A stretch of DNA of 64,000 bases, from contig CAOJEH010000001.1 in NCBI GenBank assembly GCA_948434005.1, forward strand, positions 77,678-141,677, read 5' to 3'. Of this stretch, positions 20,459 to 60,136 are shown piece by piece. Source of the DNA: an uncultured Mycoplasmatota bacterium (GTDB lineage: Bacteria > Bacillota_I > Bacilli_A > RF39 > UBA660). Position numbers and translations under genes: made by a program. The notes under the pieces were generated by a model. It was not told the origin of the DNA, ran no database searches, and saw only the letters and a program-made list of their open reading frames with translations. Position 1 is the stretch's first letter. Every line of letters begins with the position of its first letter.

Positions 20459-21088
20459 ATGAAAAAAAGGTTAAGACCAAAAAGTTTTGTAATTCCAACA
20501 TTATATGCAGTTTTATTTGTAACTGTAGTAACAGGAGCATATTTAATAAGCAATAGTATGAAAGGTGAGAAAGTAGAAGAAAATTATACATATGTATCTA
20601 ACGTTATAATGGATAGTCAAATTCCAGTTATGAACCAAACAACTAAGATGATTAAACCATATACTAATGAAAAAGTAACAGTAGGTAAAACATATTATGA
20701 TTATAAAGGAGAAAGTAAAAATCAAGAAAGCTCAATTACATATTATGATGGAAGCTATATTCAAAATTCAGGAGTTGATTATACATTAAACGAAACTTTT
20801 GATGTTGTATCAGTTCTTGATGGAACAGTTACAGATGTAAAACAAGATGAAGTGTTGGGAAATGTAGTAGAAATAAAACATGGTAATGATTATGTAACTA
20901 CATATCAAAGCCTAAGCGAAGTATCAGTAAAAAAAGGTGATACAGTTACTCAAGGTCAAGTTATCGGAAAAAGTGGAACAAATAAACTAGATAAAGATAT
21001 GGGAAATCATTTACACTTTGAACTATATACAAACGGTCAAGTAGTAGATCCAAATCTATATATAGATAAAGAATTAAAAAATGAGTAG
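20459..21088 (+). CDS. spoIIQ: SpoIIQ-like forespore membrane protein (degenerate M23)
   Basis: SpoIIQ of the forespore and SpoIIIAH of the mother cell form the zipper and channel across the engulfment membranes. The 209-residue protein has one membrane helix (about 11-31) and an extracellular M23 domain. The first zinc motif HxxxD reads N103-SGV-D107, so the His is missing, as in Bacillus SpoIIQ; the second motif HLHFEL is intact. It is probably non-catalytic. The following spoIIID and mbl confirm the locus. Confidence 0.88.
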   Translation: MKKRLRPKSFVIPTLYAVLFVTVVTGAYLISNSMKGEKVEENYTYVSNVIMDSQIPVMNQTTKMIKPYTNEKVTVGKTYYDYKGESKNQESSITYYDGSYIQNSGVDYTLNETFDVVSVLDGTVTDVKQDEVLGNVVEIKHGNDYVTTYQSLSEVSVKKGDTVTQGQVIGKSGTNKLDKDMGNHLHFELYTNGQVVDPNLYIDKELKNE

Positions 21089-21112
21089 CATTTAAATAAA
21101 TGCTATTTTTTT
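21086..21112 (+). terminator. Intrinsic terminator after spoIIQ
   Basis: TAGCATTT (21086-21093) pairs with AAATGCTA (21098-21105), followed by seven Ts. The stem begins at the spoIIQ stop codon. Confidence 0.88.
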
Positions 21113-21163
21113 CTCATAAAATCTAAAAAACTTACTATACTTTAATAGAAAGAGGTTTTTTAG

Positions 21164-21421
21164 TTGAAAAGAAATATAAAGGAAAGAGTACTTAAAGAAG
21201 CAAATTTACTAATAGAAAAAAAGTTAACTATTAGAGAGTTAGCTGATATAATAGGAGTAAGTAAAAGTACAGTACATAATGATATGAGAAATAGACTAAA
21301 ACTTATAAATAAAGAGTTATATTCAGATATAAATAACCTATTTTTAGATCATATTAGGATAAGACATTATCTTGGAGGATTATCTACTCAAAAAAAATAT
21401 AAAAAAAATACTATAAAATAG
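21164..21421 (+). CDS. spoIIID: Stage III sporulation transcription regulator SpoIIID
   Basis: A small DNA-binding regulator of the mother-cell sigmaE and sigmaK regulons. The 85-residue protein has a helix-turn-helix, TIRELADIIGVSKSTVHNDM (about 22-41), and the basic C-terminal tail used for a second DNA contact. The start is TTG at 21164 with AGAGG eight bases upstream; no ATG is available. Its location between spoIIQ and an mbl-like gene matches Bacillus. Confidence 0.92.
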   Translation: MKRNIKERVLKEANLLIEKKLTIRELADIIGVSKSTVHNDMRNRLKLINKELYSDINNLFLDHIRIRHYLGGLSTQKKYKKNTIK

Positions 21422-21468
21422 CAATTTTATGGTAAAATATATAATGATTACAAAAAAGGAGTGATTAT

Positions 21469-22461
21469 ATGCTATCAAAAGATATAGGAATAGATTTGGG
21501 AACAGCTAATGTATTGATATATATAAAAGGTCAAGGCATAGTTTTAAATGAACCAAGTATAGTAGCAATAGATACTGAAACAAAAAAGGTAATTGCCGTT
21601 GGTACTGAAGCAAATGAAATGTTAGGAAGAACACCAGGTAAAATAAAAGCAATAAGACCAATGAAAGATGGCGTAATTGCAGACTTTGAAATTACAGAGA
21701 TAATGTTGAACTCATTTATAAAAAAAATAAAGGGTAAATCATTTATAACAAGACCAAGAATATTAATATGCTGCCCATCTAATATAACTCCTGTAGAAAA
21801 AAATGCAATTAAAGAAGCAGCAGAAAGAACAGGTGCTAGAAAAGTATTTATAGAAGAAGAACCAAAAGTAGCTGCTATAGGAGCAGGAATGGATATATCA
21901 AAACCAACTGCTAATATGGTAATAGATATTGGTGGAGGTACTACAGATATTGCAGTTTTATCATTAAATGATATAGTTACATCATCTTCTATTAGAGTAG
22001 CAGGTAATGTTTTTAATCAAGATATAGTAAAATATATAAGAGATAAATATAAACTATTAATAGGTGATAGAACTGCAGAAGAAATAAAAATAAATTTTGC
22101 TAGTTGCTATAAACCAGATAAAAAAGCAACTCTAGAAGTTAAAGGTAGAAATTTAATAACAGGACTTCCTCATATGATAACTATTACTCAAGAAGAAACT
22201 GAAATAGCTTTAAAAGATAGTGTTTATAAAATTGTAAAAGCAGCAACAGGAGTTTTAGAACAAACACCCCCAGAGTTATCAGCAGATATAGTTAATAAAG
22301 GCCTTGTCTTGACTGGTGGAGGGGCAATGTTAAAAGGACTAACAGACTTATTAAATAAAGAATTAGAAGTTCCTGTGTTAATTGCAGATTCACCACTAAC
22401 ATGTGTTGTAGAAGGAACTGGGGTTTTATTAGAAAGACCTAGTGAATTAGAAGAAGACTAA
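21469..22461 (+). CDS. mbl: MreB-family actin homologue (Mbl-like)
   Basis: Forms membrane-associated filaments that guide cylindrical wall synthesis. The 330 residues show actin phosphate-1 DIGIDLGTANVLIYIKG, the connect motif and phosphate-2 MVIDIGGGTTDIAVLSL, and the adenosine motif GLVLTGGGAMLKGL. Position after spoIIID points to the Mbl paralogue rather than MreB proper; a tree would be needed to decide. Confidence 0.92.
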   Translation: MLSKDIGIDLGTANVLIYIKGQGIVLNEPSIVAIDTETKKVIAVGTEANEMLGRTPGKIKAIRPMKDGVIADFEITEIMLNSFIKKIKGKSFITRPRILICCPSNITPVEKNAIKEAAERTGARKVFIEEEPKVAAIGAGMDISKPTANMVIDIGGGTTDIAVLSLNDIVTSSSIRVAGNVFNQDIVKYIRDKYKLLIGDRTAEEIKINFASCYKPDKKATLEVKGRNLITGLPHMITITQEETEIALKDSVYKIVKAATGVLEQTPPELSADIVNKGLVLTGGGAMLKGLTDLLNKELEVPVLIADSPLTCVVEGTGVLLERPSELEED

Positions 22462-23713: not shown

Positions 23714-24445
23714 ATGATAAACTTTATTATATGTGAGGACGAAAAAGAAATAAGAAAAAATACTAAAAGTTGTATTTTAAGTTTTATGATGAACTATGAT
23801 ATAGATTATAAAATATATGAATTTGATGCTTATAATAAAAAGTTTGAAGATATAGTAAAAGAAGATAATGGTTTTAAAATATACTTTTTAGATATAAAAA
23901 CTAATAATGGTTCAGGATTAGATGCCGCCAGAATGATTAGAGAAAAATATGATGATTGGGTTTCTGCTATAATCATCATGACTTCTTATGCAGAATATAA
24001 ATACGAAGCATTAAGTAGTAGATTATATTTATTAGATTTTATAGTAAAATTTGATAATTGTGATAAAAAAATAAAAGAAGATTTATTAATTGCAATGAAA
24101 TCATATGATAAAAGATATAAAATGCTAAGTTATGAATATAATCATACATACTATAAACTAGAATATAGACAAATAATTTATATTGAAAAAGAAACAGATA
24201 GTAAAAGATGTATCATAAAAACTAAGTATGGTGAACAAGCAATACCAGGAACTTTGAGTGAAGTATATAAGAAACTAGATGATAGATTTTTAAAAATCCA
24301 TAAAAGTATGATAGTAAATGTAAATGAAATTTCGAAGTATGAAATAAGAAAAAATAAAATTACTTTTAAAAACGGAGACCATACACATTTAATATCAAGA
24401 AATAAAAAGAAGGAGTTGATAGAAAGTGTCTGCAGTAGTAACTAG
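23714..24445 (+). CDS. agrA: AgrA-type LytTR response regulator
   Basis: The 243-residue regulator has an N-terminal receiver (acidic pocket CEDE at 7-10; phospho-acceptor Asp60 in IYFLDIKT) and a C-terminal LytTR DNA-binding domain (about 135-240: FLKIHKSMIVNVNEI, then KITFKNGDHTHLISRNKKK). In agr systems the phosphorylated protein activates the agrBD promoter and a regulatory RNA or other targets. GGTGGTGAT precedes the ATG. It overlaps agrC by 20 bases, so the two are one operon. The order agrA-agrC is the reverse of the staphylococcal C-A order. Confidence 0.92.
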   Translation: MINFIICEDEKEIRKNTKSCILSFMMNYDIDYKIYEFDAYNKKFEDIVKEDNGFKIYFLDIKTNNGSGLDAARMIREKYDDWVSAIIIMTSYAEYKYEALSSRLYLLDFIVKFDNCDKKIKEDLLIAMKSYDKRYKMLSYEYNHTYYKLEYRQIIYIEKETDSKRCIIKTKYGEQAIPGTLSEVYKKLDDRFLKIHKSMIVNVNEISKYEIRKNKITFKNGDHTHLISRNKKKELIESVCSSN

Positions 24446-25727
24446 TATAATATGTAGCTTGATATTAAATTTTAGTATAATATTTATAGTAAAAAAATTA
24501 ATGGGAGATAATAGTAATATTTTTTCAGTAAAATTCTTCCTTTCTTTAATAATATTGTTAACATTACAAACAATTTTTTATAGTGGAAGTTATAATATTA
24601 TATATATAATATCAAATTACTTAGCTATAATATTATTTCTAAAAATAAATTTTAATGGTTCAATGACAAAAACTCTTACATGTACAGCCATTACAATTTT
24701 AATACAAATGTTAGCAGATTTTCTTAATTCTGTAATTTTTCTAAATTTTGTTAATCTAAATGACATAAGAGGAATATGGTATTTAAGAATATTTAGTAAT
24801 GTGATAGTCAGTTCTTTAAGCATTGCAATTTTTTTAATACCAATATGTAGAAAGAAATGTGAATACTTCACTTCAAAAACAGAGAATAAAAATATTTCAA
24901 CTATAGTGCTACTTATAATACTTATAACTGTAATAGTAGTTGTAACTTATTCAATGCCAAGTGAATTTAAATTAGATTCTCAGTACTTTGCTAATATATT
25001 CATATTATTAACGTTAATAGTATTTTGCTATATATTTATTAACGAAAATAACCAATACAATAAGTTGAATGATGAATATGATAATTTATTTAAGTATATT
25101 CAAATATTTGAAGATTGGATAGAAAAAGAACAACTAAATAGACATGAATATAGAAATCAATTATCATCACTTAGGTGTATGACAAAAGAAAAGAAATTAA
25201 AAGATAAAATAGACAGTATATTACTAGATAATATTAATATAGCAAATGATACTGTTAATCAGTTAAAGCCTATTCCTAATGGTGGTTTAAAAGGATTGTT
25301 GTATTATAAAATATCAGTTGCCGAAAGTAAAAAGATACATGTTGAATTGGATATCAGTATAAAAAAATCAGACTTAATAAAGAAACTGTCTGAAGATAAT
25401 ATGAAAACAATATGCCGATTAATAGGTATATATTTGGATAATGCAATAGAAGGTGCTATAGAGACAAGAAAGAAGATTCTTTCCATAGAAATATATGATT
25501 TTGATAATGATATAAATATTGTAATAACTAATACCTTTAATAACAAAAATGATATTAGTAGAAGAAATGAAAATGGTTTTACAACTAAAGGAAAAGGTCA
25601 TGGAAAGGGGTTATACTTTGCTGGAAAAATGCTTGCAAAGAATAATTGGTTAAAAGAAGAGCAAAGTATAATGGATAAGTATTATATTCAAAGGTTAGTT
25701 ATAAAAAATAGAAGCAGAAATAATTAA
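24426..25727 (+). CDS. agrC: AgrC-type GHKL sensor histidine kinase
   Basis: Senses an extracellular peptide and phosphorylates AgrA. The N-terminal 200 residues hold about six membrane helices, as in AgrC. The cytoplasmic part has the phospho-acceptor His240 in LNRHEYRNQL, the N box LDNAIEGAIETR and the G box GKGHGKGLYFAGKML of the HPK10/GHKL family. Start GTG 24426 has AAGGAG nine bases upstream, inside agrA. A terminator follows, then agrD on the opposite strand. Confidence 0.9.
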   Translation: MSAVVTSIICSLILNFSIIFIVKKLMGDNSNIFSVKFFLSLIILLTLQTIFYSGSYNIIYIISNYLAIILFLKINFNGSMTKTLTCTAITILIQMLADFLNSVIFLNFVNLNDIRGIWYLRIFSNVIVSSLSIAIFLIPICRKKCEYFTSKTENKNISTIVLLIILITVIVVVTYSMPSEFKLDSQYFANIFILLTLIVFCYIFINENNQYNKLNDEYDNLFKYIQIFEDWIEKEQLNRHEYRNQLSSLRCMTKEKKLKDKIDSILLDNINIANDTVNQLKPIPNGGLKGLLYYKISVAESKKIHVELDISIKKSDLIKKLSEDNMKTICRLIGIYLDNAIEGAIETRKKILSIEIYDFDNDINIVITNTFNNKNDISRRNENGFTTKGKGHGKGLYFAGKMLAKNNWLKEEQSIMDKYYIQRLVIKNRSRNN

Positions 25728-25743
25728 TACTGCTTCTTTATTT
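25710..25743. terminator. Terminator between convergent agrC and agrD
   Basis: AGAAGCAG (25710-25717) pairs with CTGCTTCT (25730-25737) around an AT loop, followed by a T-rich tract on the plus strand. It ends the agrAC message 12 bases before the agrD stop codon. Confidence 0.85.
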
Positions 25744-25754
25744 TTAATATTTTA

Positions 25755-25877
25755 TTAGTCATTAAATGACTTTAATGCATTAGGCTCTTCAGTAAAGAAA
25801 AACATACATCCCATACTAGCAGCGCCAGTAACCATTAATGCAACAGCACTAACTATTGCAGCTAATCTCTTCTTCAT
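25755..25877 (-). CDS. agrD: AgrD-type autoinducing peptide precursor (40 residues)
   Basis: A small gene directly downstream of agrB on the minus strand. The 40-residue product has a basic start (MKKR), a hydrophobic amphipathic stretch (about 5-22), a single Cys24 in MGCMFFFT and an acidic, Pro-containing tail starting EEPNAL, the three-part AgrD layout. AgrB would cut after the ring and link Cys24 to the new C-terminus as a thiolactone; the ring is probably CMFFF or CMFFFT. AAGGGAG lies about ten bases before the ATG. The family call rests on layout and agrB linkage. Confidence 0.85.
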   Translation of the reverse strand: MKKRLAAIVSAVALMVTGAASMGCMFFFTEEPNALKSFND

Positions 25878-25916
25878 ATTTTTACTACTCCCTTCTTACT
25901 TCTATTTAAAAAAACA

Positions 25917-26522
25917 TCATTTAGATATCTTTTTAGCATTTTTTGAATTATTATATGATTCATTCATAACCTTATAAGTTATAGGGTTAATTACAATAGC
26001 TTGAATCATTATTGCTAATAAAAATAATTTAGATAAAATTATATTATCTATAACAATACTGCATATTAGATAAATAATTCCAATTATTATAGTTAATATC
26101 TTTCTAATTAATTTTTTCCTTTTGTTATTAAAAGGTCTTTTTATTGTATCAGCAGGTGCAAAAGGTATGAATGTTAATATACTGATAAAAGATATTATAT
26201 ATAATATGTGATTACCATTAACTAATTTTATAAAAATATATGGTAACACTATAAATAGCAATATTGATGTAATTAAACATTCACTACTATTTTTAGCATG
26301 TACTCCAAATCCAAAATATCTAATAATATTAAATAGAATTAATAAACCAATAACTTCTTTAAATATATTTAATAACAAAGCCAAAACAATTATCACAACT
26401 AATTTAGTTATTGTTAAATATATCCCTTCTAAGCCATAATTTAGCTTTTCTATTTCTTCTTTAGAATAATTGTTATACTTACATAAGAAAGATAACATTC
26501 TATTCATAAAAAACGATTTCAT
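25917..26522 (-). CDS. agrB: AgrB-type peptide-processing membrane protease
   Basis: Membrane Cys protease that cleaves the AgrD tail and forms the thiolactone peptide. The 201-residue protein has about five or six membrane helices. The catalytic pair His75 and Cys82 is visible in GFGVHAKNSSECL, with the seven-residue spacing of staphylococcal H77/C84. ATG 26522 is preferred to GTG 26531 because GAGG sits directly before the GTG and eight bases before the ATG. agrD follows after 39 bases on the same strand. Confidence 0.92.
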   Translation of the reverse strand: MKSFFMNRMLSFLCKYNNYSKEEIEKLNYGLEGIYLTITKLVVIIVLALLLNIFKEVIGLLILFNIIRYFGFGVHAKNSSECLITSILLFIVLPYIFIKLVNGNHILYIISFISILTFIPFAPADTIKRPFNNKRKKLIRKILTIIIGIIYLICSIVIDNIILSKLFLLAIMIQAIVINPITYKVMNESYNNSKNAKKISK

Positions 26523-26766
26523 ACTACACACCTCGTCTACGATAAAAATAATAACATTCTTTTTTATAAATTTAATATCTTTCGTTTATTAATATTCTAG
26601 GCGCATAGTAAATAAAGAATATGTAACTATTTGTAGAAAAATTGACTTTAAAAAGAAATAAATTAGCAGTTAAAGGAAATTTTATGTAATAAAAGTTTAA
26701 CTTGTTACACTAATGTAGCTCAACCAAAATTAGTTGAGTAGTATAAGTTAGGAAAAGAGGTGTGGT
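26523..26766. promoter_or_regulatory. Divergent control region between agrB and csp
   Basis: This 244-base gap should hold the agrBD promoter (minus) and the csp promoter and leader (plus). A hairpin CTCAAC/GTTGAG (about 26718-26736) lies in the csp leader. GCAGTTAAAG (26666-26675) and AAAGTTTAAC (about 26692-26701) loosely resemble LytTR half sites, but their spacing (26 bases) is larger than in the staphylococcal promoter. AgrA control is inference. Confidence 0.35.
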
Positions 26767-26985
26767 ATGATAGGAAGAGTTAAGTGGTTCAATAATGAAA
26801 AAGGATATGGATTTATAGAATATAAAGAAAATGAAGATATATTTGTACATTATTCAACAATTGAATCTGACGGATATAAAACATTATCAGAAGGCCAGTA
26901 TGTAGAATTTACTCTTGCCGATACTAGCAAAGGATATCAAGCATTACATGTTAAGTTAGTAAAAGAACCAGCTGTTACAAAATAG
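26767..26985 (+). CDS. Cold-shock-domain protein (CspA family)
   Basis: The 72-residue single-stranded nucleic-acid chaperone has RNP1 KGYGFIE, RNP2 DIFVHYSTI and the opening GRVKWFNNEKG. AAAAGAGGTGTGGT precedes the ATG. A hairpin in its leader may affect translation, as leaders of cold-shock mRNAs often do. A weak terminator (ACCAGCT with AGGTGGT, then Ts, 26967-26995) overlaps the last codons. Confidence 0.93.
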   Translation: MIGRVKWFNNEKGYGFIEYKENEDIFVHYSTIESDGYKTLSEGQYVEFTLADTSKGYQALHVKLVKEPAVTK

Positions 26986-27066
26986 GTGGTTTTTTAATTA
27001 TAAATTTTGAATATTTTTCTTTAAAGATATTTAATACATGTTATAATAATATTAGGAGGTGATTAT

Positions 27067-27591
27067 ATGGAATTAGTTATCCGTGGCTCTAAAATAAAAG
27101 TAACAGATGCAATGAAAAGTTATATCGAAGAAAAACTAGGTAAATTAGAAAAATACTTAGAAGATTCAAATAGTATTCGTGCAACTGTTGTTATTAAAGT
27201 TAAAGGCCATAATCAAATAGTAGAAATAACTATACCATTAAAATCATTTATTTTGAGATCGGAAGAATCTCAGGAAGATTTTTATGCAGCAGTAGATAAA
27301 ACAGTAGATAAATTAGAAAGGCAAATAAGAAAAAACAAGACTAGACTGATGTCTAAGAATACTAAGACTTATGATTTTTCATTCTCCGAAATAGAAGATT
27401 ATGAAGAAGATGCAGAAAATATAATTAAAAGAAAGAAAGTTGAAGTAAAACCTATGGATGAAGAAGAAGCTATAATCCAAATGGAACTTTTAAATCATCA
27501 ATTCTATATGTACAAGGATAGTAATACAGGTTCTTACTCAGTTGTATATAAAAGAAAAGATGGAGGCTATGGTATTATAGAATCTGAATAG
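27067..27591 (+). CDS. hpf: Ribosome hibernation promoting factor, long form
   Basis: The 174-residue protein binds the 30S decoding site and pairs ribosomes into inactive 100S particles. The N-terminal S30AE domain (about 1-100: MELVIRGSKIKVTDAM) is followed by a linker and the C-terminal dimerisation domain KPMDEEEAIIQMELLNHQFY...VYKRKDGGYGIIE, so it is the long form typical of Gram-positives. TAGGAGGTGAT precedes the ATG. In many Firmicutes hpf lies before secA; here one MFS gene intervenes. Confidence 0.95.
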   Translation: MELVIRGSKIKVTDAMKSYIEEKLGKLEKYLEDSNSIRATVVIKVKGHNQIVEITIPLKSFILRSEESQEDFYAAVDKTVDKLERQIRKNKTRLMSKNTKTYDFSFSEIEDYEEDAENIIKRKKVEVKPMDEEEAIIQMELLNHQFYMYKDSNTGSYSVVYKRKDGGYGIIESE

Positions 27592-41921: not shown

Positions 41922-44900
41922 TCAATTTTTTGTTGCTAGACATTTAGTCATTATACTCAAACCAAAACCTATTAAAATAATTCCCAAAATATATTTCAAT
42001 ATAGGAATGTTTTTAGTTGTGTCACCAACTACCACATTCTGTTTAATAATTTTATTATAATTACCTTTATTTTCATTTTTACTTAATAAAATATTATATT
42101 TTATATTATCAGTATTATTTATATTGATTAATAATATATCACCATTTGTAATTAAATCACTATTAGTAATTTCTCCCTTACTATTTAAGTGAGTAAATAC
42201 ACTTGAAGTGGAAAATATATCAATCTTATTTACTAAATCATTAAAACTATTACTAGATGTAGTAATGCTATTTTCATTTACTGAAAGTGATGAATCAAAT
42301 TTTTTAATACCATAAATAGTAACCTTGCCACTTTCCTCTATATCATCAAAATCGGGAGATGATATTTTATAATTGATTATATATTCTCCAACTTCGCTGA
42401 ATTCAGGTATTGATGTTAAATCATAAGCTAAGTTATTAATAGAATATTTTATATTGTAATCATTTGAATTCAATTTTAAATCAATTGTATGTTTCTTTCC
42501 ATCATAAAATCCCTCATAATTATTTGAATAGTAATCAATGATTTTATCTTTAATTGATAATTTTCTTTCTTCGTATATTTCATTGTAATTATTATCATTT
42601 TCTATATATAGTTTATATTTTATGAGATAATCTCCTATTTCTTGGTAGGAAGGGCAATCATCAAGAATATAGGCCCCTTCATTATTCATATATTTTATTT
42701 TTACATTAGAAGGAGAATTTACAGTAATATTAATGTTATGCAATTGGGCATCATATTTTACCACAGATTTTGAGATATGATAATTAATTTGTGGGGTAGC
42801 TTTTTCTATGGTAAATGTTAAAGAAATATCGTCGTTAGTATTATCTTCCCAAATATAGTTTTTATCTTTTAGAGAAATTATAATATTTTGACTTCCGGCA
42901 TTAGTTCTAGTATTTCCGGAAATATCCATGTAATCCTCTATATAATTATTTAGTATAGCTTTTTGCTCTTTTCCATTATATACATACAACTTATTACTTA
43001 AAGTGGGCTTTTTTAAATTTCTTGGTAAAATTTCTATATCCGTTTCAAATTCTTTTTCTTGACTTCCATCATCAAAGGAATAATTTAAAAACTTTTCATC
43101 AGTTAATTTTAAATGTATAATTGCTTTTGTTTTACCAATAGTTGTTTCCTTTGTATATAATTGTTCTATGATATATTCATTACTATTTAAGTTTGATATG
43201 GTTAAATCTTCAGGATTAATGTAAGTAGTTCCATCAAATATTTTATTATTAATAGAAATATCTGGTATAATCACCTGCTTATCACTTTCTATAAGAACTT
43301 CTAGTTCTATATTTTCAATAGTTTCATAATTATCTTTATCTACAGGAACATAATTTGCTAAATATTTTTTAATACCTGTACCAGTGACTATCTCATCTGG
43401 ATTATTCCAATGAAAGCCATTTGGTAAATTTATTGTTGATAATTTATTTCCTATTTTAGCTTTTAAATCAGATGGTAAGGTATATTCAGGAATTGCCTTT
43501 TTTACTTCCACATTTACTCTTTCTTCGTAATGGTTTTTTGAATAATTTGTATCAAAAACTATAGTAAAATAGGTATCACCATATCTTAAGCTGTCTTTGC
43601 CATTTTCATATATAATTTTGTATTGTTTTGAAAAATTGTTGGATATAAAATCAAACGACCCAGCTGTTCCTTCATAACTAACATTTATTGAAGTTAATTC
43701 TTCGTTTATTTTATCAAAGGCTTTATATTTTTTATTTTCAGTGTTGATTTCTATTTTCTCTGTTTCAATAATATTATATTTAATATTATTCTCATGTAAA
43801 AAGTTATGAGCATAAGATTGATTATGTACAAAAATAACATAATATTCATCTTGTGGAAATACATTAGCTGATTCTATTTTAGTAAGTGAATTGGGTAATA
43901 AAACACCGCTTGCACAATTTAATAATGCAGCATCTTTTAACTCGGTAATACCTTCAGGTATTTTATATCCTGAGCTACTGGATATTGAATAAGGTCCTAC
44001 CACTTTAACTTTTTCTGGTATAATTGATTCTTCTGATGCCATAATTAGTATATTGGTTTTCTTGTCCACAATGGTTCCAGAGTATTCTTCACTTTCATAA
44101 AATTCATTTGCATTATCTATAGTAATATTTTTTAGGGATATATCTTTTCCAAATGCATTTTCCTCAATTTTTGTTACTGTACTAGGTATATGAATTGTTT
44201 CTAAATTAGATGAATTATAAAAAGCTTCTCTAGAAATTTCTGAAACACCACTTTCAATATTAACAGTTTGTAAATTTGGTGTATTACTAAAAGTGCCTTC
44301 TTCTATTTTTTTAACACCACCGGGTATTGTAATAGATGAAATGCCACTCTCGTTAAAAGCATTTTCTCCTATTTCTTGTATACTTTCTGGTAAATCAATA
44401 TTATATAATTTTGGAGTATAGTTGAATGCGTACATTTGTATAGAACGAATAGTTTTGGGAAGGATTACCGTTTCTAGATTTATACATGAAGAAAATGTAG
44501 AGCTCTCTATATATTCTATATCTGCTAGGATTTTTACTTGTTTTAATTTTTCCTTTTCATCAAATGTACTATACGAGAGGTTACCAATTTTATAATTTTT
44601 ATATGTTTTAGGAACTTCAACATATTTTGGATAGTTATTTTCATCCTTAAATCCTTTTATATCAATGGAATTGTCAAAATCATTATATGCTTGATAAACC
44701 CATCCATCATCTAGATGATTCATTACTTTTTTAGTTAGAGTAAAGTCGTTATACTTTATGGTTACTGTTTGTTCTCCTTCAAGGTATGGGTCATAATTTT
44801 CAATTTCTAGATTTTCTAATTCACCTAAATATTTAGTAACATATTCATCTTTACTGTAATATATTTTAATTTGCATATCTAATAGATTAGTATTATTACC

Positions 44901-46270
44901 ATAATTATATAATGATTCATATGTGTCTGTGCCTATATCTAGTTTTGTAATCATTTTATTACTTTCTGTTTTAAAAACATTATAGGAATCACAATCATTT
45001 CCATCACAAAATTTTGCATTAGAAAAATTAATAAAACCATAACCATATATTTGATCGAAGCCATCCTTTCCTAAATCAATGGTATTCTTTTTTAATAATT
45101 CTACTACATTATCTAACGATAAATCTTTATTAAAACTTTTTAGTAATGCTACTGCACAAACAGCATGTGGGGTAGCCATTGATGTTCCACCAATAATTTC
45201 GTGGTCATCATCATCATTATTTCCATTATTTTTTGATAGTTGTGTATAATTTCCCATCAGACTTTTAATAGCAGTACCTGGTGCTGTGAAAGTTATCTTT
45301 GATCCATAGTTTGAAAAATCTGATTTATTAAGACTGCTATCAACTGATGCTATAGATATAGTATTATCATAAGCGGCTGGAAAGGACGGAATTGATGTAT
45401 TCTCATTACCTGCTGCCGCAACACAAATTATATTTTTTTGCCTAGCTCCTTCTATTGCTTGGTATAAACTTTGGCTTGAACCCCCTCCAAAACTCATATT
45501 TATAATATCGGCTTTTTCATTATAAACTATCCAATTTATTCCTGCGATAATCTGTATAGTCTCTATAGACATATAATCAGTGTGCTTAACAGGAAGTATT
45601 TTTACATTAGAAGGAGTTCCTTCTGCAATAGTTCCAGCGATATGTGTACCATGTCCATTATTATCATACATTACATCACTATTATAGTCATATACACTAT
45701 AGGTTTCTTTTATTTTGTCTTTATAGTACTTATTAATTAAATCTACATCACAGCCAGAATCCAGTATTGCAACTGTTACATCTTTTACTCTGTTGGTATC
45801 TATAGAATTGATTGCACTATCAAGTCCCATTTTTTCTATACCCCAGGAATTATAACTCTTATTATTGCTATTATTAATTTCAGTTAATGAATACTGCCTA
45901 TTTTCCTCAACACTTAGGATATTTTTATCTTTTTTTAAAGAAATCAGAGCTTTATCTTTTTTATTTTTATCACTATATTGTAAAATGTATTGATTATTAG
46001 GTGCTTCTATTACTTTTGTAGCGCCATGTGTATTTTTGATTTTTGTAGGAGAAATAACAATTAGTATATTAGAGGTATCGTTATTCTTACTAATTTTTCT
46101 AAGTTCATCTAGATAATTATTCATAAAACTATCTGATATTTTAGAAATATTAATTAACGATTTTATATTAGTCTTATTTTTAAATTGTACTTTTATATAT
46201 ACTAAAGTGCTTATTAGAATTATTACTAAAAAATTAAATACAAATACTTTTTTTTATAACTACGAACCAT
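41922..46270 (-). CDS. Large surface subtilase with LRR and Ig-like domains; signal segment out of frame
   Basis: From ATG 46124 it is 1400 residues: I9-like prodomain (about 20-75), S8 peptidase with Asp122 (AILDSGCD), His158 (NNGHGTH), Asn240 and Ser315 (GGTSMATPH), BspA-type leucine-rich repeats (about 520-780), Ig/YDG-like strands (about 870-1330), and a C-terminal membrane helix with short KCLATKN tail. ATG 46124 has no ribosome binding site and no signal. Upstream, AAAAGGTGG and ATG 46270 begin MVRSYKKK, then an A8 tract (46248-46255) throws off the frame; one more A would join VFVFNFLVIILISTLVYIKV, a clear membrane segment, to the protease. A secreted or surface protease, probably host-facing. 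Confidence 0.88.
46248..46255 (-). repeat. A8 homopolymer (T8 on plus) in the subtilase signal region
   Basis: Eight identical bases fall in the Lys-rich n-region of the predicted signal anchor. Length 8 is out of frame with the protease; length 9 would be in frame. Confidence 0.85.
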
Positions 46271-55411: not shown

Positions 55412-58400
55412 ATGATGAAGATTATAATTGGAAAAAGAACTAAAATTTTTAAAATATTAGGTGTAATGACATGTATTCTAACTATAACTATAGGTTTATA
55501 TTTAACATACCTTAATAAGTTATCTAGAAGAGAAGATACAAAAAAGGTAAATACTATAGAATATCATAGTTCAGGTACTAACAATAACTCTGCAAATTAT
55601 AAACAAGTTTACTTAAGTGAATTAGAACCTATTGAAAAACATATTGGTTATGGTGAACTAGTAAAAGATGCGGATTTATCAGGTAATCCTATTGTTATGT
55701 TACTTGAAGGTAACTACTTCTCTTTTAAAAAAGGAATATTTGCTCATGCAAACTCAACTTTAGTTTATGATTTAAGAGAATATAGTGATTATAACTACTT
55801 TACAACATTTATTGGTCTAAATAATTCATCTGCGCGTGGTAATGGTGTTATATATCACTTTTATACATCGGAAGATGGAAGTACTTGGACTGAATATAAA
55901 GACCCTATAACTAAATTACCTAAGGAGACTGCTACTTCTGTAGAGATTCCTTTGGAAAATGTTAAATATTTAAAATTAGTAGCAGATTCAAATGGTTCAA
56001 ATGCATCAGACCACTCTGTTTATGCTGATGCTAAATTAGTAACCGAAGTAAATGGTAATTTTATATTAGATTCTGTTGAAAATATAGATGAACAAATAGA
56101 TGGAATATATAATGGAGAAACAGATTTAAATGATGAACTTGAACATAATGTATTAAAAAGAGAACTTGTTAAAAGAATAGGTAAGTATACAATTAACTCT
56201 TTCTATAACGAAAGTGAAGATAATAAAGCTGCTATAGATTGGCTTTTAAATAATAAAGAGGTACTAAATTATTATATTTTAGGTGGTACACCAGATGGAA
56301 ATAGTTACTATAACTCTTTAACACAATTATCTAGATTATATAAGGAATATAAAGAAGATTTTAAAATACAAGAAACTACTTCATATGGTACAGTGTTAGG
56401 TGATTTATACACTCGTATGGCTATTGCCTTATCACTTACTCATTCTCAAAGAGTAGGTTTATGGATGCAATCAGGTGTAAAAGAAAATCAATCAGATGCG
56501 GTAGTTCGTTATCAAATATTTAAAGAATTACATAAAAATGGTAAATTTAGAGCAACAGAGACTATGAACATGACAAAATGGTTTGAACAATATAATGTTG
56601 AAGATATGCGTTTTGTAATGAACTCTAATATTGATGATGAATCAGTATTATGGTTAAATGAATATGTTCAAAGTAAAATAGATGAAAATCCAGGAAGAGC
56701 TTGGTCATATTTAACACCACATCCATATATGGCTTATGTTTGGCCAAACTATGCAAATCCAGTGTACTATGATGATGCAAACTATGACTACTTTAATGAA
56801 CTATTCTCCGTTAATGGCAAAAAATTATATGATTATGGAATAACACGTGGAACAAATGATCATAAAGTATATAAACAATGGATGAACTTTAGAAATAAAT
56901 TCGGTACAGGTGCAGTTTGTGGAGGAATATCTAAATCTGGTGCTGTTATTCGTGCAACTCATGGTATTGCTGCAACAGTTATCGGTCAACCTGGACATGC
57001 AGCACTACTATATTATACAGCCGATGCAGAAGGTAAAGGGTATTGGCGATTAGATAATGATGTAAGTGGATGGACTTTATCAGAAAAAGGTGAAAGATTA
57101 CTTCTAGGCTGGGGTAATGGTAGTTATGCAAGAGGTTCATATCAAGTTGTTTATATGGCTTTAGCACAAGAAGCTTTAAATGATTATGAAAATTTTGAAA
57201 AAGCAGAGAAACTTATAATGTTATCAAGAACTTTTGATGACAATCTTACCAAAAAGGAAGAATTATTAAGAAAAGCTTTAGAAATTCAATCTATAAACTT
57301 AGATGCATGGCTTGAATTAATAACACTTTATAACAATAGTAATAATAAATCAGAAGGAGATTATTATGCTTTATCAGAGGAATTAGCAGAAAGTTTAAAA
57401 TATTTCCCACTTCCAATGTACCATTTAACTAACCTAATTAAACCTAAAATGGCAAGTGTAGAAAACTCATTTAAATTTACATTATTACAAACAAGAACTT
57501 TAGTTGATGCGAAAAATACTCCTAATAATACTGCAGATAGTTATACAGTTTATCAACCAGATTTAACTAGACTTGAAGCAAATTTCTTATTAGGTAAAAT
57601 GGATAAAACATTAGCTACATTCTCATTTGATGGAGCAGATGCCGGTAGAATAGTTCTATCTGAACGTTTTAATGGTAGTGGTATTCGTTGGGATTATAGC
57701 TTAGATGGTAAAAATACTTGGCATGAAGTATCATTTACTGGTGAAGAAGAACATAAATTACAATTAGGCTCAAAGCAGATTAAAAGTATAACTTCTGAAA
57801 ACGATATTTATGTTCATATAGTTGGAACAAATTATGATGAAAATAATTTATATAAAATAGATATTACTGAAGGTAGATTACCTAGTGACTTGTTTGCAAA
57901 TGATTTAGAAAACAGAGTAGTTGGAGTTAATTTAAATACTGAATGGCGTTATAATGAGAACTCTTCTTGGACTTCATACAATATTTCATCTCCTGATTTA
58001 ACCGGAGATAAAACTGTTCAAGTAAGACAAGCAGCAACAGGTACAGCTCTTGCAAGTGCTCCTTCACCAATATATACATTTACAAAAGATAATCAACCAG
58101 ATACAAGAAAATATATTCCAGTATCACATTTGACTATACAAGCTGTTTCTACAGAAGCTGTTAACAATGGTGGTGCAGCAATAAAAGCTATTGATGGTAA
58201 CTATAATACTAGATATCACTCTGCATGGAATGGAACAGATACTGAGCGTTTCATAACTATAAAACTTGATAAGCCTGTTGCCTTATCAGCTGTAGAATTT
58301 GTTCCAGCAGGTGGAGGAAACGGAAAGATATATGATGGTACTGTCTATGGAAGTCTAGATGGAGAGAATTGGAAAGAATTATCTAGATTAACTAATCTAA

Positions 58401-60136
58401 CATATACTAATCAAGCTAACACAATAGAAGATGCTATTGAAAACACAAAAAGTTTTGATATAAATTATGATGAAGAAGTTCAATATGTAAAAATTGTAGC
58501 AGACCGTACTAATGGTAATTGGTTTGCTGCAAGAGAATTTAATCTTTATCAAGATTTAACTAAAAATCCGCATCCTACTGCTGGAATTGCATACAGTACT
58601 ACCGAACTTACAAATGGAAAAGTAGTTGCAAGGCTTATAAATCCTAGTAGAGCAATAACTATAACAAATAATGGTGGTTCTGATACTTATACATTTAGTG
58701 AAAATGGAGAATTTACTTTTGAATTTAAAGATAAAAACGGAATAACAGGATCTGCAACTGCTAAAGTTGATTGGATTGATAAGAATATACCAGATGCAAA
58801 TATAGAATACGAATTAGATAGTAATCATAAGATAAGTATTTCATTAGATGGTATTAGTGAAGACGTATATCTTTTAGATAAAAACGATGAACCTATAAAC
58901 TTTATAGAGGTTAAGAATAAAAAGGTAACAAGCGTTTCTTACCTAAACTCCTCAAAGGAGGTAAAAAAGATTGTATATCTTGACCAAAATGGATGCATTA
59001 CAAAGATTGCTTATACTAATACAAATAAGAATATTCCATCAGTCGCAACTTATGTAACTATAATAACAAATGGTTCTGCAACTAGTGAAGAATATTATGA
59101 TGAACATGGAAATGAAGTAGAAGTTTCTGAAGCAGACAAAGAGGTATTAAAAGGCTTACAACAATCCATAACAGATCCCCTTGAGTATACTTTTGAAAAT
59201 AGTGGAAGTCATGAATTTAAGTTGCTTGACAAAGCTAAAAATATTGCTTATAAAAGTGTTAAAGTTGATTATGAAGAGGAAGATAATAAGATAATAACAA
59301 GCGATATCTCATATGATATAACTCACTTGACTAATAAGGATGTCGTTGCAACAGTTAAAGCATATGTATTCACAAACGGTCAAAAGAAAAATGCAACAAT
59401 AGTTTCAGGTGGAGAAACACATACATTTAATACAAACGGAAAATTTACATTCCAATATAAAGATAGCGATGATTCTGATGATTATGTAACAAGCCATACA
59501 GCTAAGGTCACTTGGATTGATAAAGTTGCTCCAACAGCCAAAGTTAAATATACTACAAAGGAAAATGGAGAAGTAGTTGCAACTTTAGTAAATGAAAGTG
59601 AAAAGATAATTATTACTAACAATGGTTTCAGTAGAGAACGTAATTTCAAAAAGAATGGGGAATTTACATTTATATTTGAAGATGAAGCTGGAAATGAAGG
59701 AAGAGTTACAGCCAAGGTAACTTCTATAAAAGAAGAAAAACCTAATAAGCCAAATAATCAAAATCCTCCATCTACACCTGGTAAACCCTCATATACAAAA
59801 CCATCAACCTCAATAAAACCATCTAATCGTAACAAAAATGTAAATACTAGTACTAAAAAAAGTTCTAATAAGAAAGAATCTAATAATAAAGCAACTTTAG
59901 ATGAAACCAATAAGACAAAAGATGAAGATTCTAAAGAAACTACAAACAAGAAAAACAAAGCAAAGGAAGCAACTAATGACAACTATAAGAATAGAAATAA
60001 TAATACTATAGAAGATAATAAATCTGATAGTATAACAGCGATTAGAATTATTATAGTAATTATAATTATCATATTTAGTGCTGTAACAGCAGGTGTTTAT
60101 CTTAAAAAGAAAAAAGATAGTATAACTTATAATTAG
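55412..60136 (+). CDS. 1574-residue surface protein: NPCBM, transglutaminase-like core, F5/8C, Ig-like repeats
   Basis: An N-terminal membrane/signal segment (about 12-30) is followed by an NPCBM-type carbohydrate-binding module (about 62-205). A helical region leads to a transglutaminase-like core with Cys503 (GAVCGGISKSGA), His529 (GQPGHAALLYY) and Asp548 (YWRLDNDVSGW), a plausible catalytic triad. An F5/8 type C module (about 897-1040) and three Ig-like repeats (about 1053-1125, 1293-1365, 1373-1435) come next. A Lys/Asn/Pro/Ser stalk (1440-1540) and a C-terminal membrane helix with KKKK anchor it at the surface. It probably binds glycans and acts as an amidase, protease or cross-linker; substrate unknown. 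Confidence 0.82.
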   Translation: MMKIIIGKRTKIFKILGVMTCILTITIGLYLTYLNKLSRREDTKKVNTIEYHSSGTNNNSANYKQVYLSELEPIEKHIGYGELVKDADLSGNPIVMLLEGNYFSFKKGIFAHANSTLVYDLREYSDYNYFTTFIGLNNSSARGNGVIYHFYTSEDGSTWTEYKDPITKLPKETATSVEIPLENVKYLKLVADSNGSNASDHSVYADAKLVTEVNGNFILDSVENIDEQIDGIYNGETDLNDELEHNVLKRELVKRIGKYTINSFYNESEDNKAAIDWLLNNKEVLNYYILGGTPDGNSYYNSLTQLSRLYKEYKEDFKIQETTSYGTVLGDLYTRMAIALSLTHSQRVGLWMQSGVKENQSDAVVRYQIFKELHKNGKFRATETMNMTKWFEQYNVEDMRFVMNSNIDDESVLWLNEYVQSKIDENPGRAWSYLTPHPYMAYVWPNYANPVYYDDANYDYFNELFSVNGKKLYDYGITRGTNDHKVYKQWMNFRNKFGTGAVCGGISKSGAVIRATHGIAATVIGQPGHAALLYYTADAEGKGYWRLDNDVSGWTLSEKGERLLLGWGNGSYARGSYQVVYMALAQEALNDYENFEKAEKLIMLSRTFDDNLTKKEELLRKALEIQSINLDAWLELITLYNNSNNKSEGDYYALSEELAESLKYFPLPMYHLTNLIKPKMASVENSFKFTLLQTRTLVDAKNTPNNTADSYTVYQPDLTRLEANFLLGKMDKTLATFSFDGADAGRIVLSERFNGSGIRWDYSLDGKNTWHEVSFTGEEEHKLQLGSKQIKSITSENDIYVHIVGTNYDENNLYKIDITEGRLPSDLFANDLENRVVGVNLNTEWRYNENSSWTSYNISSPDLTGDKTVQVRQAATGTALASAPSPIYTFTKDNQPDTRKYIPVSHLTIQAVSTEAVNNGGAAIKAIDGNYNTRYHSAWNGTDTERFITIKLDKPVALSAVEFVPAGGGNGKIYDGTVYGSLDGENWKELSRLTNLTYTNQANTIEDAIENTKSFDINYDEEVQYVKIVADRTNGNWFAAREFNLYQDLTKNPHPTAGIAYSTTELTNGKVVARLINPSRAITITNNGGSDTYTFSENGEFTFEFKDKNGITGSATAKVDWIDKNIPDANIEYELDSNHKISISLDGISEDVYLLDKNDEPINFIEVKNKKVTSVSYLNSSKEVKKIVYLDQNGCITKIAYTNTNKNIPSVATYVTIITNGSATSEEYYDEHGNEVEVSEADKEVLKGLQQSITDPLEYTFENSGSHEFKLLDKAKNIAYKSVKVDYEEEDNKIITSDISYDITHLTNKDVVATVKAYVFTNGQKKNATIVSGGETHTFNTNGKFTFQYKDSDDSDDYVTSHTAKVTWIDKVAPTAKVKYTTKENGEVVATLVNESEKIIITNNGFSRERNFKKNGEFTFIFEDEAGNEGRVTAKVTSIKEEKPNKPNNQNPPSTPGKPSYTKPSTSIKPSNRNKNVNTSTKKSSNKKESNNKATLDETNKTKDEDSKETTNKKNKAKEATNDNYKNRNNNTIEDNKSDSITAIRIIIVIIIIIFSAVTAGVYLKKKKDSITYN

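Follow-up and report, generated by a model that had tools for sequence, protein, structure and literature searches.

A convergent agr locus fixed in a family of Bacilli, with an AgrA-type repeat placed for the neighboring cold-shock gene csp

The window analyzed here, a stretch of 64,000 nucleotides from an uncultured Mycoplasmatota bacterium, contains what is by gene content a complete agr peptide quorum-sensing system with a predicted signaling function (Table 1). The best explanation, to which we give a probability of about two-thirds, is a working agr system whose main conserved direct effect is probably the activation of csp by phosphorylated AgrA. AgrB would cleave and cyclize AgrD into a peptide with a predicted thiolactone structure, AgrC would sense the peptide, and AgrA would be phosphorylated, presumably by transfer from AgrC. 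Phosphorylated AgrA would then bind a direct repeat of 21 bp in the agrB-csp intergenic region and activate (presumably not repress) csp, which encodes an RNA-binding cold-shock protein. The main effect is probably on csp because the repeat adjoins an extended -10 element, lacking a -35 element, that faces this gene. The agrBD genes would be read from their own divergent promoter ca. 90 nt away, with auto-induction that is perhaps weak, indirect or achieved by looping. What the sequence itself shows is the four genes and their layout, the repeat, how the promoters are placed, and that the site occurs together with agrA. The repeat could instead be a repressor site, and the downstream role of Csp is presumed; a link from cell density to translation or RNA stability by way of csp and hpf is attractive and speculative.

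Table 1. Features of the agr-csp region (positions are those of the window)
Feature	Position	Strand	Description and basis
agrA	23714-24445	+	LytTR response regulator; Pfam, NCBIfam, structure match by sequence, residues
agrC	24426-25727	+	sensor histidine kinase; Pfam, NCBIfam, residues, structure match by sequence
Bidirectional hairpin, probable terminator	25700-25756	both	folding z -2.6 and -3.7
agrD	25755-25877	-	40-aa autoinducing-peptide precursor; position and family pattern
agrB	25917-26522	-	membrane peptidase processing AgrD; Pfam, NCBIfam, residues
agrB-facing -10 (TATTAT)	26548-26553	-	ca. 96 nt from LytTR-type site
Degenerate Spo0A-type box (TGTAGAA)	26632-26638	+	exact TGTCGAA in the same intergenic region of many relatives
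AgrA/LytTR-type direct repeat	26644-26679	+	EM motif, leave-one-out p=0.001
csp-facing extended -10 (TGTTACACT)	26703-26711	+	+59 from site start
csp	26767-26985	+	cold-shock-domain protein (Pfam); proposed direct AgrA output
hpf	27067-27591	+	ribosome hibernation factor (Pfam, NCBIfam)

An initial annotation of this DNA had proposed a complete agr locus, and the proposal is borne out by the four genes as placed, by family HMM matches and by residues. AgrB matched the Pfam AgrB family at 4.8e-30; an AgrB without homology to that family, which had been named as grounds for rejecting the locus, was not what was found. AgrA matched the Pfam LytTR domain (3.3e-16) and, slightly below the curated cut-off, the receiver domain (3.9e-06), and AgrC matched the GHKL ATPase domain HATPase_c_5 (3.2e-09). 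The nearest NCBIfam models were AgrB-like (2.3e-31), AgrA (3.7e-19) and AgrC (1.8e-17), each below the equivalog cut-off. Searched by sequence, the closest solved structures to AgrA were ComE and the LytTR domain of S. aureus AgrA, and AgrC matched the solved kinase structure of S. aureus AgrC at 2.1e-10. The diagnostic features cited in the annotation are all exact: the catalytic residues His75 and Cys82 of AgrB, the phospho-acceptor His240 of AgrC, which lies between 6–7 predicted membrane segments (seven hydrophobic segments) and the GHKL ATPase domain, and in AgrA the receiver residue Asp60 (accompanied by Lys112) and the LytTR domain, at residues 146–237. The agrC gene has a GTG start codon and overlaps agrA by 20 bp. 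Within its own genome assembly (1.45 Mb in 17 contigs), AgrA is the only LytTR protein found and agrB is present in a single copy.

AgrD had no match in Pfam or NCBIfam, and its identity rests on pattern and position. It can be divided into MKKRLAAIVSAVALMVTGAASMGC-MFFFT-EEPNALKSFND, with a core of Cys24, five residues and EEP, and it adjoins agrB; it fits the AgrD type, a small precursor whose N-terminus is hydrophobic or amphipathic and which has a Cys core and an acidic C-terminal segment. Together with repeats of 21-bp period, the locus thus has the AgrB peptidase, AgrD-type precursor, AgrC kinase and AgrA regulator that define an agr system. It is not of the staphylococcal agrBDCA type, in which the four genes form one operon in the order B-D-C-A.

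The layout was followed through 117 genomes of one GTDB family, nearly one per genus and mostly metagenome assemblies. AgrB was found in 78 of these and had no match in the other 39; in the genus of the window, AgrB and AgrC were both found in eight of nine genomes. The ninth (G006) was considered as a genus-level loss of agr and set aside, since csp and hpf are missing as well and the block is probably absent from the assembly. In the family, 80 loci were retrieved, of which 73 were assessable, with agrC in reach, and 72 of the 73 have the convergent order agrA-agrC><agrD-agrB. All 73 loci that include csp have it divergent from agrB. The csp gene is followed mostly by hpf and secA, and wecA and mreB often precede the locus. 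None of 20 AgrB loci retrieved from other families of Bacilli shows this order; where agrB and agrC are both nearby in those families, they share one strand. A scan of the genome collection for AgrB returned two relatives only. The locus is not a chance arrangement, being conserved across the GTDB family, and the convergent layout is a character fixed in this lineage. The annotation's description of two convergent operons unlike agrBDCA therefore agrees with the gene order of the family and with its comparison to other Bacilli, with the amendment that the layout is no local oddity. The sole non-convergent agr cluster seen in the family is in locus L066 (G083:C17), where a second AgrB shares its strand with agrA and agrC.

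The stop codons of agrC and agrD are 27 bp apart, and the two operons had been described as facing each other across one terminator. A strict scan for standard terminators found none in the agrC-agrD gap, and a terminator of that type was dropped. In its place there is a hairpin with arms AGAAGCAG and CTGCTTCT. Its stem is 8 bp and its loop 12 nt, it overlaps the stop codon of agrC, and U-rich tracts flank it on both strands; the scan misses it because the loop limit of the scan is shorter than 12 nt. The single terminator is probably this U-flanked, long-loop hairpin, not a standard terminator.

A direct repeat with a period of 21 bp is characteristic of LytTR/AgrA binding sites. Expectation maximization (EM) on 71 agrB-csp intergenic regions returned two copies of approximately CATTTYARACA exactly 21 bp apart, with a score of 331 compared to 126–142 for the best of 40 models on shuffled sequences. 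A period-21 signal was also found in these regions (z 8.3, or 7.0 with Spo0A-type boxes masked). The intergenic sets ranged from 55 to 71 regions across the family; the intergenic regions that the motif models describe also served to train them, the leave-one-out and orphan tests (below) are out of sample, and the PWM tests used two alternative matrices. Among the 71 agr-bearing loci, 14 lack a site that passes the placement threshold, and 18 fail leave-one-out at p<=0.05. The copies in the window are CTTTAAAAAG (26646-26655), which is degenerate, and CAGTTAAAGG (26667-26676).

Elsewhere in the genome of the window, no other convincing AgrA-type site was found at the stringency used, at which more degenerate sites could escape. 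The exact two-copy pattern, designed from the agr site, occurs once, at the agr site. A looser pattern allowing two mismatches has five matches, compared to zero for the reversed control; of the four additional matches, three fall within coding genes and the fourth is intergenic (G000:C6:44483, L189), and none is convincing. The sporulation genes and large surface proteins suggested in the initial annotation as targets have no such site in the window at this stringency, and that suggestion is not supported. SpoIIQ-like and SpoIIID-like genes (20459-22461) lie directly upstream of mreB and wecA, so that sporulation genes flank the agr locus. The large proteins, both probably cell-surface or secreted, are a subtilase of 1400 aa with BspA-type leucine-rich repeats (41922-46124, minus strand) and a protein of 1574 aa that carries NPCBM and F5/8 type C domains (55412-60136, plus strand).

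The position of the AgrA-type site relative to the two promoters indicates that it is placed for csp and not primarily for agrB. With the site as common reference point, the family loci show an extended -10 (TGNTANNNT) that faces csp; in 32 of 52 it lies between +57 and +63, compared to 1.9% in other bands, and these loci have no conserved -35. The site is at a fixed ca. 26 nt from this element and about 90–96 nt from the agrB-facing -10. The annotation had AgrA acting on a promoter upstream of agrB, next to csp; the control region beside csp is indeed there, and the agrB promoter as its main target is not supported by these distances. Each genome of the genus that has csp has only one match to this cold-shock protein. 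The conserved neighbor hpf begins 81 bp downstream of csp and is possibly affected with it by read-through, and also has a possible promoter of its own at 27020-27047. The predicted csp leader (26716-26766) has an inverted repeat, CTCAAC/GTTGAG, immediately ahead of the ribosome-binding site; as judged by eye, it is not conserved across the genus.

Natural losses of the signaling genes separate AgrA from its partners. The hpf neighborhoods of genomes without AgrB were examined, and in five of them (L217, L218, L219, L220 and L221) agrB, agrD and agrC are gone from contiguous sequence at the locus, leaving agrA at full length immediately upstream of csp and co-directional with it. All five of these orphans keep a LytTR-type site (p 0.002–0.015) and an extended -10 at the right spacing; in a small comparison, none of five csp promoters from loci without agrA has both (Fisher p=0.008). 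The losses look independent, because the five stand apart from one another on a tree of hpf+SecA, some nodes of which are weakly supported. Asp60 and Lys112 are invariant in all 69 AgrA proteins that have partners. Among the orphans, L218 has Ala and both L219 and L221 have Thr in place of Asp60. All orphans but L220 have lost the conserved Thr90, and two have lost Lys112. Identity to the LytTR consensus is 0.68–0.79 in L217, L218, L219 and L221, compared to a mean of 0.78 in partnered AgrA, and is 0.57 in L220, in which the receiver is intact. The simplest reading of these sequences is that selection acts on the DNA-binding role of AgrA at csp separately from the peptide signal. A broader version is about an even call: that control of csp is the ancestral and retained job of AgrA across the family, with csp as a protein counterpart of RNAIII, and that the peptide-sensing half is dispensable and was lost about five times, after which AgrA was retained to regulate csp, lacking its phospho-acceptor in at least three of these cases. 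Two further loci lack agrB. L223 keeps agrA-agrC, with no clear site; in L222 (G010:C47), agrA with an intact Asp60 and two copies of csp are divergently oriented close to the end of a contig, a possible inversion.

Identity among congeners is 43% for AgrC and 55% for AgrB, compared to 90% for MreB, and the divergence of AgrC is expected if signal and receptor diversify together. The pattern of Cys, five residues and [DE]E[PE] is present in 61 of the 67 AgrD proteins of the family that have the Cys. With this spacing, a ring of five or six residues is possible, here CMFFF or CMFFFT. Staphylococcal AgrD differs in having Cys and four residues before the acidic C-terminal recognition segment.

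Three other explanations were weighed against csp activation by AgrA. One is ordinary auto-induction, in which AgrA drives agrBD from the agrB promoter as at P2 in S. aureus and csp is a syntenic bystander. The distance from the start of the site to the start of agrB, ca. 116 bp (IQR 100–119), is fairly constant, and an agrB-facing -10 is found at -95 to -98 from the site start, so an effect on agrB is also possible. As the full account, auto-induction is unlikely: the site is more than three times as far from the agrB-facing -10 as from the csp-facing one, and it persists upstream of csp in the five loci that have no agrB. A second explanation is that the agr genes are a vertically inherited relic of little function, kept by proximity to csp-hpf-secA, in favor of which are the 39 genomes without an AgrB match and the repeated partial losses. 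This is very improbable given the intact Asp60 and Lys112 of every partnered AgrA, the maintained AgrD pattern, the concentration of diversification in AgrC and AgrB, and the conserved promoter architecture.

The remaining explanation is that the intergenic elements serve mainly in control of csp by Spo0A, the 21-bp repeat being minor or unrelated. TGTCGAA, the Spo0A box, is the strongest single motif in the agrB-csp intergenic regions, found in 24 of 55 compared to 0.5 expected, at a density of 2.32/kb versus 0.04/kb in the rest of the loci. Spo0A itself is present in 108 of the 117 genomes, and the boxes persist at csp in some genomes without agr. Exact boxes and tandem boxes spaced by 10 bp (for example in L055, L086, L096 and L099) are ca. 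60-fold denser here than elsewhere, and mostly lie 75–100 bp upstream of csp, beside a CTTGAA-N17-TATATT-like promoter. The boxes are more likely to belong to csp than to agrBD, because in most loci they are placed just upstream of a csp promoter and in some agr-less genomes they are kept, and Spo0A was rejected as a regulator of agrBD on the same grounds. They suggest that csp is under Spo0A control across the family, in most of which it has an additional promoter of Spo0A type. That this is the main purpose of the region is improbable: the repeat is still significant with the boxes masked, it has LytTR spacing and tracks agrA, and the box in the window is degenerate.

Agr systems are known mainly from cultured pathogens, in which the main outputs are RNA or toxin genes. 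In more than 70 genera of mostly uncultured bacteria with small genomes, a fixed locus points to csp as the conserved output, with the ribosome hibernation gene hpf next in line, and the relatives that kept agrA while losing the signal, and in part Asp60 too, are natural experiments that make a non-virulence role of agr directly testable. In S. aureus, two direct repeats are found upstream of P2 and P3, which are divergently arranged (PMC4227749). The locus described here resembles that system in its AgrB, AgrD, AgrC and AgrA homologs and in its AgrA-type direct repeats, which lie in the intergenic region between signal-making genes and a divergent effector gene. It differs in that agrA-agrC is a separate, convergent operon, that a protein gene, csp, takes the place of RNAIII, which is opposite agrBDCA in S. 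aureus, and that there is one repeat pair, placed for csp. The agr2 locus of Clostridioides difficile has the order agrACDB (PMC3754575), and the relative chromosomal order is the same here, with agrA-agrC upstream of agrD-agrB; unlike in that single locus, agrDB is inverted and the two operons converge. The AgrB loci of the other families of Bacilli sampled have the same protein families, with agrB and agrC on the same strand where both are nearby. The agrB-csp control region is newly described here. No report of the convergent layout, of AgrA kept without agrB or of AgrA controlling csp was found in published work, which, covering open-access literature only, is weak evidence.

Two kinds of variation within the family concern the peptide and its receptor. 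In eight loci (L061, L069, L075, L087, L090, L094, L172 and L176), agrC is duplicated in tandem beside a single agrB and agrD. Some of the copies are nearly identical and are possibly assembly artifacts or very recent, while others have ca. 40–50% identity in the sensor part, which could mean two peptide specificities. In five loci, the ring-forming Cys of AgrD is replaced at the same position, by Ser in L079 and L185 and by Thr in L052, L055 and L091. These would imply lactone peptides instead of thiolactones, of which those formed through Thr would be unusual.
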